50,300 nt of DNA, from NCBI RefSeq assembly GCF_944388875.1, contig NZ_CALXKQ010000020.1:1-50300 (forward strand), in the 5' to 3' direction. The notes beneath the pieces were generated by a model. It had not been told where the DNA came from, made no database searches, and saw only the letters and a list, made by a program, of their open reading frames with translations. The translations under genes were made by a program, and so were the position numbers. Shown here piece by piece: positions 46,886 to 50,300 of this stretch. Numbering within the stretch: the first letter of the stretch is position 1; each line of letters opens with the position of its first letter. The DNA is from an uncultured Brachyspira sp. (GTDB lineage: Bacteria > Spirochaetota > Brachyspiria > Brachyspirales > Brachyspiraceae).

Positions 46886-46987
46886 ATGAAAAACTTATTA
46901 ATAAACACTATTCATATAGCTGAAACTCAGCACTCAGCACTCAGCACTCAGCACTCAGCACTCAGCACTCAGCACTCAGCACTCTAA
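46886..46987 (+). CDS. Short ORF containing the heptamer repeat (33 aa), possible phase-variable frame
   Basis: From the ATG at the expected transcription start the frame reads 13 codons (M-K-N-L-L-I-N-T-I-H-I-A-E). It then reads the 7-bp repeat as the heptapeptide T-Q-H-S-A-L-S, and stops just after the repeat. Losing one repeat unit (or gaining two) would place this ATG in the frame that is open through the rest of the leader into the lipoprotein. The two other possible phases stop within a few codons. Expression is not proved. Confidence 0.35.
   Translation: MKNLLINTIHIAETQHSALSTQHSALSTQHSAL
46925..46984 (+). repeat. Heptanucleotide tandem repeat (ACTCAGC) x 8.6
   Basis: Eight perfect ACTCAGC units (56 bases) and a partial unit ACTC lie between the promoter and the lipoprotein gene. 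No interruptions are present. Because 7 is not divisible by 3, gain or loss of a unit shifts any reading frame across it. Perfect short repeats of this kind are prone to slippage. Confidence 0.95.
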
Positions 46988-47243: not shown

Positions 47244-47783
47244 ATGAACAAAAAGATTTTATCTATTTTCGTAATGGTAATGGCTTTATCATTACTAGGC
47301 GTAAGCTGTAATAACAAAAATACAACTGGAAGTACAGATGAGAACGGTGGCGGCGGAAGTACAACAACACAAAATAAAGAAATAGGTACTGTAACATTTA
47401 ACCCAGATGCTACTCAGATTGGTAGTGGTGTAGTAATAAATGCTGGAACAACTACTTCTGTAAGTGGAGCAAAAGAGAAAGCTTTAACAATGCAAATAGA
47501 CGGTAGCGATGTAGCTAATCAAGGTTATACTTTTACAATTTCAAAAGTTGTACGTGAAACTACTGCAGTTGGAGGAGAAAGTGCTGCTACTGTGGATAAT
47601 GGCTTACAAGCTTCAGACTTTACTTATGACGGAGCTAAAATTACTTTAAAAAATGGTACATCTTTAGATAGTGGTTGGACTAGTAATTCAGTAGATGCTT
47701 ATGCAGTTACTATTAAAATATCTAAAGATGGATACAATGATAAAGAAGTAGTAGTTTATGTTGCATTGAAAGGTGCTGCTTAA
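47244..47783 (+). CDS. Predicted surface lipoprotein
   Basis: The ATG is fixed by AAAGGAG ten bases upstream and by a signal peptide that begins M-N-K-K-I-L-S-I and ends L-L-G-V-S-C (Cys 22). The mature 158-aa part has a Thr/Gly-rich linker (about 28-45, including G-G-G-G-S) and a beta-rich domain with regularly spaced Thr/Val/Ile and no Cys. The domain ends V-V-V-Y-V-A-L-K-G-A-A. It may form an Ig-like or cadherin-like sandwich, but I do not recognise a family. The frame is open for 108 further codons upstream (to 46920) across the heptamer repeat, which is unusual for non-coding AT-rich DNA. Confidence 0.8.
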   Translation: MNKKILSIFVMVMALSLLGVSCNNKNTTGSTDENGGGGSTTTQNKEIGTVTFNPDATQIGSGVVINAGTTTSVSGAKEKALTMQIDGSDVANQGYTFTISKVVRETTAVGGESAATVDNGLQASDFTYDGAKITLKNGTSLDSGWTSNSVDAYAVTIKISKDGYNDKEVVVYVALKGAA

Positions 47784-48047: not shown

Positions 48048-48106
48048 ACGCACGGTAAATACGCTTTATACATAGACAAAATTATACTACTCAATTTATA
48101 ATCATA
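48048..48106 (+). repeat. Flanking direct repeat, left copy
   Basis: This approximately 59-bp stretch contains GCTTTATACATAGACAAAAT and TATACTACTCAATT. It recurs with a few changes at 48951-49009, so the tandem palindromes lie between the two copies. Confidence 0.7.
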
Positions 48107-48116
48107 AATCAATTAA

Positions 48117-48392
48117 GCGTGCGGTGAGTTGGCAATAAATTTAAAAAATACTTGGGTGGGCAGTTATAATAACAGAATTAATTAAAAAGAAAAATAAAGC
48201 AGAAATTACAGGTTAAAGTAGAAAATATGAAGGGTGGGAAAATGTAAGTAAATTTAAAATTTTTTTAAACATACCCTCCTTATAAATTTTTTGCTTTTAT
48301 TAAAAACGGCATTTTAATTAATTTTATTATTTAATTATAAAAGAATTCCCACCCTAGTTTTTATTAAATTTATAATTTTCATTAACGCACGC
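48117..48392. repeat. Long imperfect palindrome, unit 1
   Basis: The unit opens with GCGTGCGGTGAGTTGGC and closes with ATTAACGCACGC. The outer 44 bases of each side are inverted copies, sharing GCGTGCG, TATAAATTTAA and GGGTGG. The inner arms repeat the pattern with AAGGGTGGG on the left and CCCTCCTT on the right, around an AT-rich centre. The entire 276 bp can fold back on itself. No convincing ORF is present. Confidence 0.8.
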
Positions 48393-48457
48393 TGAACTCA
48401 GTTTTTAATATAAAGAAATTTGAATTGCAAATAATTATATATTTTTAACTTCGTTCT
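48393..48457 (+). repeat. Conserved 65-bp spacer between palindromes 1 and 2
   Basis: The spacer runs from TGAACT to AACTTCGTTCT. It is closely matched by the 66-bp spacer after unit 2 (48736-48801), both having TTTGAATTGCAAATAA in the middle. Palindrome plus spacer is therefore the real tandem unit (341-344 bp). Confidence 0.8.
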
Positions 48458-48735
48458 GCGTGCGGTGAGTTGGCTATAAATTTAAAAAACGCTTGGGTGG
48501 TCAGTGCTATAACTATTTTTAACTAAAAATAAAAATAACTCAGAAATTACAGATTAAAGCAGAAAATATAAAGGGTGGGAAAATGAAAATAAATTTTAAA
48601 ATTTTTATAACATACCCCGCCCTTATAATTTTTTTGCTTCTATTAAAAATATAATTCTAATTAATTTTACCGTCTAATTACAAAAGCACACCCGCCCTAG
48701 TTTTTATTAAATTTGGAATTTTCATTAACGCACGC
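48458..48735. repeat. Long imperfect palindrome, unit 2
   Basis: This 278-bp copy begins GCGTGCGGTGAGTTGGC and ends TTAACGCACGC. The inner stem is AAAGGGTGGG paired with CCCCGCCCTT, which differs from unit 1 on the right arm, so pairing potential is retained despite sequence change. The following spacer (48736-48801) repeats the first one. Confidence 0.8.
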
Positions 48736-48801
48736 TGAACTTAATTTTTAATCTAATAAAAATTTGAATTGCAAATAAATATATATTTTTAACTTCGTTC
48801 T

Positions 48802-48946
48802 GCGTGCGGTGAGTTGGCTACAAATTTAAAAAACGCTTGGGTGGGTAGTAAAAATAACAGAGTCAATTAAAAATAAAAATAACGCAGAAATAACAAATTA
48901 GATTTTAAACATAAAGGGTGGGGAATGTAAGTAAATTCAAAATTTA
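48802..48946. repeat. Left half of a third palindrome
   Basis: It begins GCGTGCGGTGAGTTGGC and follows the other units through AAAGGGTGGGG and the start of the centre. It breaks off at about 48946, where the second copy of the 59-bp flanking repeat begins. The matching right half is at 50157-50300. Confidence 0.75.
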
Positions 48947-48950
48947 TCTA

Positions 48951-49009
48951 ACGAATGGTTAATACCGCTTCATACATAGGCAAAATTATACTACTCAATT
49001 CATTATAAT
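48951..49009 (+). repeat. Flanking direct repeat, right copy
   Basis: This is the second copy of the approximately 59-bp sequence found before unit 1, again with CTTCATACATAGGCAAAAT and TATACTACTCAATT. It begins exactly where the third palindrome is interrupted. Confidence 0.7.
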
Positions 49010-49015
49010 AGACTT

Positions 49016-49183: not shown

Positions 49184-49885
49184 TTATATAACGTAACTAT
49201 ATAAAAACCAATAATGTGCAAAAGAACCAGCCAATACAAATATATGAAATATATCATGGGTAAATTGTTTAGCTTTGTCATTAAATTTTTTTCCAAAAGC
49301 ATATAAGAAAGCACCTACAGTATAGAATACTCCTCCTAAAATAAGCCAATTTAAATGCAATATATAGAAGGAATTTAAAAGAGGCTTAAAAGCAAATACA
49401 ATTATCCAACCCATCAAAATATATAAAATAAGTCTTAAGTAAATATTTTTATATTTAAAAACTGTATTTGATAAAACTCCTATCAAAGCACATCCCCATA
49501 TAACTGATAATATCAATATTCCGATATTCTTAGGAAGAGAAAATATACAAAGAGGTGTATAAGTTGCTGCTATAAAAATGTATATTCCTATATGATCAAA
49601 TTTTCTAAATAACGTTTTTACTTTTCCTTTAGGGAAAAAATGATATAAAGAACTAAATGTATATAAAAATATTATACCTACACCGTAAATTATTACAGGG
49701 ATTGGACTCGCCTTAACTTTTATAAGCATAAGCACAATACCTGCTATTGAAAGCAAAGCACCTGTGCCATGTGATATTGCTGAATAAAGCTCTCCTATTT
49801 TTTTATTTTTTTTAGTTTTATATTCAAATTTATTGTAATTTAACTTATCACTATTTAACATATTAACTGATGATGTATTTTGCAT
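49184..49885 (-). CDS. HlyIII/PAQR family membrane protein
   Basis: The 233-aa protein has seven predicted membrane helices and the PAQR/HlyIII signatures: S-A-I-S-H-G-T-G-A at the start, F-S-S-L-Y-H-F-F and F-D-H-I-G-I-Y-I-F-I-A-A-T-Y-T-P in the centre, and H-D-I-F-H ... A-H-Y-W-F at the end. The Ser/His/Asp residues form a metal site in the superfamily. Despite the name, cytolysis has been shown for few members; bacterial homologues are linked to membrane-lipid homeostasis. GGAGGTG precedes the ATG. It lies between the two separated halves of a palindromic repeat, so it may have been inserted or captured there. Confidence 0.9.
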   Translation of the reverse strand: MQNTSSVNMLNSDKLNYNKFEYKTKKNKKIGELYSAISHGTGALLSIAGIVLMLIKVKASPIPVIIYGVGIIFLYTFSSLYHFFPKGKVKTLFRKFDHIGIYIFIAATYTPLCIFSLPKNIGILILSVIWGCALIGVLSNTVFKYKNIYLRLILYILMGWIIVFAFKPLLNSFYILHLNWLILGGVFYTVGAFLYAFGKKFNDKAKQFTHDIFHIFVLAGSFAHYWFLYSYVI

Positions 49886-50112: not shown

Positions 50113-50156
50113 TTTGCAGAAATATTGATTATATGCAACAATTATCACTCCTGATT

Positions 50157-50300
50157 TAAATAAATTTTAAATTTTATTACATACCCCGCCCTTATAAATT
50201 TCCTGCTTTTATTAAAAACAGCGTTCTAATTAATTTTACTGTCTAATTATAAAAGCACACCCGCCCTAGTTTTTATTAAATTTATAATCTCTTTAACGCA
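50157..50300. repeat. Right half of a palindrome unit, cut by the window edge
   Basis: It starts in the centre sequence (AAATTTTAAATTTTATTACA), continues with CATACCCCGCCCTTATAA and CACACCCGCCCTAG, and reaches TTTAACGCA at the last base. It matches the right arms of units 1 and 2 and completes the interrupted third unit if joined to 48802-48946. Confidence 0.75.

Follow-up and report, generated by a model that had tools for sequence, protein, structure and literature searches.

BOX of Streptococcus pneumoniae is a modular intergenic repeat (A-B-C) with a tandemly variable module, and the ERIC/IRU repeats of the Enterobacteria are large imperfect intergenic palindromes, ERIC being about 127 bp long and single. 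ERIC/IRU is not known to have a transposase of its own. The BIMEs of E. coli are composed of REPs that are spaced regularly and alternate in orientation (PMC2817692), and they bind gyrase (PMC6379681); BOX, together with RUP, is treated in PMC3049150. At the level of nucleic acid structure, G-quadruplexes with a long central loop, of the form G3-N1-G3-long loop-G3-N1-G3, have been described in human 5'-UTR RNAs (PMC4114690).

Most bacterial intergenic palindromes are regarded as selfish or neutral; in the repeat family reported here, a specific part appears to be kept by selection in place. Brachyspira genomes have been studied for more than 10 years, and this family fills about 2% of the stretches examined. 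The locus analysed lies in a window of 50,300 nucleotides, the whole stretch of DNA under study, from an uncultured Brachyspira sp.

Architecture of the Array

The first-pass annotation of the window had placed two imperfect palindromes of ~277 bp, joined in tandem with 65-bp spacers, at 48117-48801. Tandem-repeat, inverted-repeat, and DNA-fold analyses bore this out: these coordinates hold two imperfect palindromes of 277 bp, each followed by a conserved spacer of 65 bp, and the array extends beyond this range, with a half-unit at 48802-48951 and diverged spacers on both flanks. Tandem Repeats Finder aligned 48117-48457 with 48458-48800 as a tandem of period 343 with 83% matches, the full run being 48117-48945, and repeat finding in the window returned direct copies at offsets of 341-344 bp together with paired inverted arms. 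The array sits between convergent genes, namely a small lipoprotein-like protein gene without a Pfam match (47244-47783, + strand) and the haemolysin-III family gene hlyIII (49184-49885, - strand).

On the + strand, the leftmost feature is a diverged copy of the spacer module S (48049-48123; CGCACG ... GCGTGCG), which shares a 45-nt direct repeat (48062-48106) with 48966-49010. Unit 1 (48117-48392) is a fused arm pair (> and <) that forms a 276-bp imperfect palindrome, as identified by repeat finding and DNA folding; the folding z values of the two units were -2.7 and -3.4, the latter belonging to unit 1. A motif scan located its outer left heptad, GGGTGGG (48154-48160, +), with the next heptad 78 bp away (inner left, GGGTGGG, 48232-48238, +), and its outer right heptad, GGGTGGG (48348-48354, -); the inner right partner has decayed to CCCTCCTT. 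The 65-bp spacer module S with inverted CGCACG/CGTGCG ends follows at 48393-48457 (+), as read from the sequence and repeat finding.

Unit 2 (48458-48735, +), a fused arm pair forming a 278-bp imperfect palindrome, has a decayed outer left heptad (GGGTGGT) and, by motif scan, the heptads GGGTGGG (inner left, 48573-48579, +), GGGCGGG (inner right, 48616-48622, -), and GGGCGGG (outer right, 48691-48697, -). The second spacer module S (48736-48801, +; sequence and tandem repeat) leads into a third unit, represented by its left arm alone and cut at the palindrome centre (48802-48951, +), with heptads at 48839-48845 and 48916-48922, 77 bp apart. The diverged spacer module has its right remnant at 48966-49010 (+), which matches 48062-48106 at 89% as a direct repeat. 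On the far side of hlyIII, a right arm (<) is cut by the contig end (50154-50300, +) and carries minus-strand heptads at 50185-50191 and 50260-50266. The window contains 10 occurrences of GGGNGGG against 1.5 expected, and all 10 lie inside repeat units.

Near this locus, the 7-bp sequence ACTCAGC is repeated perfectly in tandem (8.6 copies, 46925-46984), ~260 bp upstream of the gene for the lipoprotein-like protein (47244-47783), and a TTGCTGA array was observed upstream of the lipoprotein-like gene inside an element of genome G004. Both could be contingency (phase-variation) tracts.

Anatomy of the Repeat Family

Lone and tandem copies from several species shared a half-arm module of the form CGTGCG - AAATTTAA - CTTGGGYGGG - about 60-70 nt - AAAGGGYGGG - TGTAATTAA. 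Each half-arm is ~150 bp long; its two GGGYGGG heptads share a strand and are set 78 (+/-1) bp from each other. Two linkers join the half-arms: an AT-rich centre, at which the arms meet head to head to give the "277-bp palindrome", and the 65-bp spacer within inverted CGCACG/CGTGCG, at which they meet tail to tail. The half-arms alternate in orientation, giving the patterns ><, <>, ><>, and ><>< in addition to lone arms. The 154 clusters found in 2.0 Mb from five species comprised 51 fused pairs, 60 lone arms, and 20 spacer-linked pairs, the remainder being longer chains.

The palindrome is directional: read on its own strand, one arm tends to carry GGGTGGG and its partner GGGCGGG, and the strand score margins were for the most part 60-130 bits. 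This preference of the arms for different heptads (GGGTGGG versus CCCGCCC in the fold) implies that the bases at the heptad centres pair as T.G and not in Watson-Crick fashion. Heptads were paired at 74-82 bp, 200 of 232 at 77-79 bp, and the spacings in left and right arms were uncorrelated (r = 0.1; SD about 1 bp each). Although elements make up 2.2% of the DNA examined, they hold 503 of its 593 heptads. In the first set of contigs, none of the element clusters fell within an ORF. Genes occur at times between arms, for which reason an integron attC cassette array was considered; element tandems are mostly free of cassettes.

A separate intergenic repeat, GTTTGTTTAAYTAA-G3N1G3N1G3N1G3-CTAATTAAAGCTATAAAA, was observed in G004 (C1, about 1449456-1455680; L061), so that this AT-rich genome contains contiguous quadruplex motifs with short loops. 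Another contiguous quadruplex motif comes after a module with a CGCGTG end, lies upstream of a gene with a product starting in MSIFDLKGNLMNDEDG, and is kept in three species (G000 C4:51307, G004 C1 about 1749122, and G009 C2:127433).

Distribution within and beyond Brachyspira

The first-pass annotation had asked whether the unit occurs only at this locus; many copies were found across Brachyspira. The genome of the window alone holds more than 60 unit copies, most of them 67-94% identical, which are frequently arranged in tandem and frequently lie where contigs end. Many of the assembly's contigs end in these repeats (C4, C7, C16, C28, C27, and the right end of the window at 50154-50300).

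We compared 26 Brachyspira species, with one genome per species. Strict two-heptad arms numbered 21-181 per genome in 23 of the 26, a reversed-pattern control being near zero, and were absent from G001, G003, and G019. Matches by blastn were obtained in 25 of the 26 genomes, those in G001 and G019 being merely chance matches of 27-32 nt. In a one-gene tree, G001 and G003 grouped together and G019 formed a long outlying branch. Since the family is missing from three Brachyspira genomes, it is not essential to the genus.

Outside the genus, five genomes (three from its family and two from its order) gave a single pattern match in all. An exact scan for the inner motif over all genome contigs placed 42 of 43 loci in Brachyspira (B. 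pilosicoli, B. hampsonii, and B. alvinipulli among the named ones), the remaining locus being an unrelated single match. A covariance-model search of Rfam returned no family matching the repeat, and a plasmid or phage origin was set aside, as blastn gave no match. Searches of the open-access literature on Brachyspira repeats, palindromes, and G-quadruplexes yielded no account of the family (subscription journals may differ), and the papers examined on Brachyspira genomes and recombination mention extensive rearrangement or recombination and no such repeat. The family is thus apparently undescribed so far.

Sequence Constraint on the Heptads

Constraint was measured at orthologous loci of two sister-species pairs, G004/G005 and G009/G022. 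The G's of the heptads had changed at 0.6-1.4% of positions, compared with 14-22% for nearby G/C. Over 19 orthologous loci, 1.9% of the conserved-motif G/C had changed, in comparison with 16.3% of the non-element intergenic G/C and 19% of the other G/C in the same arms. For exact heptads, the G changes were 2/318 in partnered arms and 1/72 in lone arms, against 143/987 in the intergenic G/C control and 16-22% for other G/C in those arms; because the heptads were selected for being exact in one of the two species compared, this apparent constraint may be inflated by up to about twofold, not tenfold. A further tally gave 6/475 heptad G's changed. In the GGG-run control, heptads were altered in 18/551 cases (3.3%), other GGG runs in elements in 18/107 (16.8%), and intergenic GGG runs in 20/230 (8.7%); the contrast was thus reduced under this control, yet persisted. 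Lone arms, few in the orthologue test, showed the same heptad constraint as partnered arms.

The middle base of the heptad had changed in 16 of 65 orthologous heptads and is free, though almost always a pyrimidine (C 232, T 257, A 11, G 3). The bases adjoining the heptads showed no clear constraint in place at the orthologous loci. Arm sequence outside the heptads changed at the neutral rate or faster (A/T sites, 7% versus about 4-5%), so that any footprint must be small. Heptad spacing had changed by at most 1 bp in 39 of 41 orthologues, compared with 115 of 148 control windows (p = 0.011), a modest result; the uniform spacing could also partly reflect shared ancestry.

From these sister-species comparisons, selection appears to keep pairs of GGGYGGG motifs 78 bases apart rather than the hairpin as such. 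The first-pass annotation had linked persistent pairing to possible selection for the fold; selection is present, and its target appears to be the heptads, those of lone arms included, and not the pairing.

Pairing and RNA Structure

The palindrome folds better than shuffled sequence on either strand (z about -5). The units had been described as folding back over their whole length; reliable pairing was confined to an outer block (~45 columns) and an inner block (~35), and did not extend to the ~55-nt mid-arms. Their inner arms had also been said to change in sequence while pairing persists. For the outer stem this did not hold up, as covariation showed no excess over shuffled controls (86.0% vs 85.9% paired). 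For the inner stem it held weakly: 82.5% was paired against 81.3% in the control, and double changes were in weak excess (34 vs 17 +/- 5), which could arise from relatedness alone; unit 1 has even lost its inner right heptad. By the covariation test, the changes between copies were not clearly compensatory, and a structured RNA defined by covariation was rejected, the outer stem being without signal and the inner stem weak.

Orientation relative to genes was random, with no strand bias; the G-rich strand of lone arms gave sense:antisense counts of 33:28 and 22:19. Intrinsic terminators of their own were found for 30% of genes beside elements versus 27% of others, and the inner hairpin was scored as a terminator in no copy. 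A role as an intrinsic terminator was not supported: no inner hairpin scores, and the neighbouring genes keep their own terminators. Lone arms have no partner and are constrained nevertheless, which indicates that selection is not on pairing. Together, the constrained lone arms, the outer stem without covariation, the random orientation, and the genes' own terminators point to the paired heptad, as DNA, as the selected thing. Rather than junk, the repeats are probably functional DNA sites, and among a fold-back mobile element, a structured RNA, and a DNA site, the three options initially offered, the DNA site fits best.

Gene Context and Chromosomal Position

After subtraction of element length, elements occupied 33/116 (28%) of convergent gaps, 64/489 (13%) of co-directional gaps, and 26/222 (12%) of divergent gaps (p = 6e-5). 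For G010, where the contig begins with dnaA, the complete set of 33 loci fell within the half of the chromosome facing away from dnaA, with 26 loci in the opposite third. Among the forward arms listed for G004, 72 of 87 were in this half as well, and the complete set of G011 loci showed no position bias (14 of 26 in that half). The concentration on the terminus side may stem from accessory DNA around the terminus and was not counted toward function. As regards a replication polarity of the heptads of the KOPS or Chi kind, forward and reverse heptad-arm counts were nearly equal in almost all genomes.

Mobility and Recombination

Between sister species, element positions were kept and copy number shifted by whole periods. 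One locus had an extra 343-bp period in G004, and another had gained a partial duplication in G005. A ~1-kb segment with a lipoprotein gene lies inside an element of G004 (C1, about 1555426-1557028; L066) and is missing from the orthologous array in G005. One inverted segment has elements at its boundaries. Synteny breakpoints fell at elements in 4/15, 3/15, and 3/12 cases, compared with intergenic nulls of 0.32, 0.21, and 0.27; elements as rearrangement hot spots were not supported, the breakpoints at elements being not above those of general intergenic DNA.

At the hlyIII locus, the array occurs in this genome only. G002 and G020 carry a lone arm directly past the stop codon, and no element was found within the flanks read in 21 other species. 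These differences support gain or loss of loci over longer times and dispersal over evolutionary time. To this extent the suggestion of a mobile element stood. Its other expected marks did not appear: a profile search with positive controls found the Y1 transposase PF01797 in 0 of 26 Brachyspira genomes, no target-site duplication was recognised, and there was no clean empty site, the syntenic loci of both sister pairs carrying elements at the same positions. An apparent absence at G022 C4:75586 proved to be a decayed copy, not an insertion. A RAYT-driven REPIN was rejected, as the 26 genomes lack the Y1 transposase.

Discussion

We tentatively read the locus as part of a Brachyspira-specific, dispersed, BIME-like intergenic mosaic in which the heptad pairs may be protein-bound DNA sites, an interpretation that we hold with slightly less than even confidence. 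The context is BIME-like by virtue of its alternating units, its linkers, and its enrichment between convergent genes. The working unit would be the ~150-bp half-arm with its two same-strand GGGYGGG heptads, and chains would lengthen and shorten by whole periods of ~343 bp, presumably as the repeats recombine homologously with one another. The heptad pairs would act as double-stranded DNA sites for a putative chromosomal (nucleoid or topology) protein touching both heptads, in analogy to E. coli BIMEs with gyrase and other proteins such as IHF or Pol I. Since the spacing is nearly constant and strand bias is lacking, a protein that touches both heptads of the same arm is favoured.

The main rival, that each arm forms a long-loop G-quadruplex, is predicted from sequence and appears rather doubtful to us. 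The arm matches the published search formula Gx-N1-Gx-N2-90-Gx-N1-Gx, and in vitro folding was shown for eight human RNAs whose central loops measured 10-70 nt (PMC4114690), although those tests were made on RNA and a 71-nt loop stands at their upper limit. Selection holds the G's and leaves free the middle base, a single pyrimidine between G3 tracts, and the adjoining bases are without clear constraint, as a quadruplex would allow; a flexible 71-nt loop, however, does not explain a spacing kept to +/-1 bp. Most of the other intergenic heptads belong to contiguous (G3N1)3G3 motifs, some of them conserved between species, and two contiguous motifs follow the spacer module (CGCACG..CGTGCG) without a second heptad downstream, as if the heptad pair had been replaced. 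Such contiguous versions near GTGYG are nevertheless rare, occurring once each in five Brachyspira genomes. An extension of the quadruplex reading, in which 100 or more selected sites of the form G3-Y-G3-71-G3-Y-G3 per chromosome, set in mirror pairs between genes and concentrated at the terminus in some species, would make up a chromosome-organising system, seems unlikely on present sequence evidence.

A MITE-like non-autonomous element, with the arms as transposon ends, a transposase acting in trans, and no host function, would account for the high copy number, the inverted-repeat anatomy, the intergenic placement, and the presence at the hlyIII locus in some species only. We consider it quite improbable, as the heptads stay constrained in place long after insertion, positions are common to syntenic loci of the sister pairs with no clean empty site, target duplications were not recognised, and PF01797 (Y1 being the family searched) is absent from the 26 genomes. 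The better-than-shuffled fold on either strand, the enrichment between convergent genes, and the weak excess of inner-stem double changes would suit a structured RNA or mRNA 3'-end element (bidirectional terminator, mRNA stabiliser, or small RNA); against the outer stem without covariation, the constrained partnerless arms, the missing strand bias, the terminator counts, and the lack of an Rfam match, such an element is very unlikely. That the repeats mainly shuffle or insert genes, as a recombination hot spot or gene-capture site, is the most improbable of these explanations: whole-period copy changes, the lipoprotein gene in the G004 element but not in G005, the element-bounded inversion, and the many copies at contig ends agree with it, but breakpoints are not in excess and the selection on the heptads is left unexplained.

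Direct evidence that one part of each copy is kept by selection comes from the comparison of sister species, and the lone arms separate sequence from fold. This makes the function of an interspersed repeat open to testing.

Comparison with Known Systems

The Brachyspira family is modular and intergenic like BOX, but BOX is built as A-B-C, whereas the Brachyspira arms alternate in inverted orientation and carry paired G heptads. It shares with ERIC a large imperfect palindrome, from which it differs in measuring 277 bp plus a spacer, in being often tandem, and in having half-arms that also stand alone. Each arm resembles the long-loop G-quadruplexes in fitting the form G3-N1-G3-long loop-G3-N1-G3 (PMC4114690); unlike the human RNAs, the Brachyspira family is a genus-wide bacterial DNA repeat, random in strand relative to genes and known from sequence. 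REP palindromes are short, in contrast to the ~150-bp half-arms with heptads 78 bp apart, and unlike REP/REPIN systems, the genus yielded no RAYT/Y1 transposase gene (PF01797, 26 genomes). As in BIME/REP systems, the known ones of which are protein-bound, e.g., by gyrase (PMC2817692, PMC6379681), the Brachyspira repeats are dispersed intergenic palindromic units that alternate in orientation, are joined by linkers, and often exceed 100 copies.
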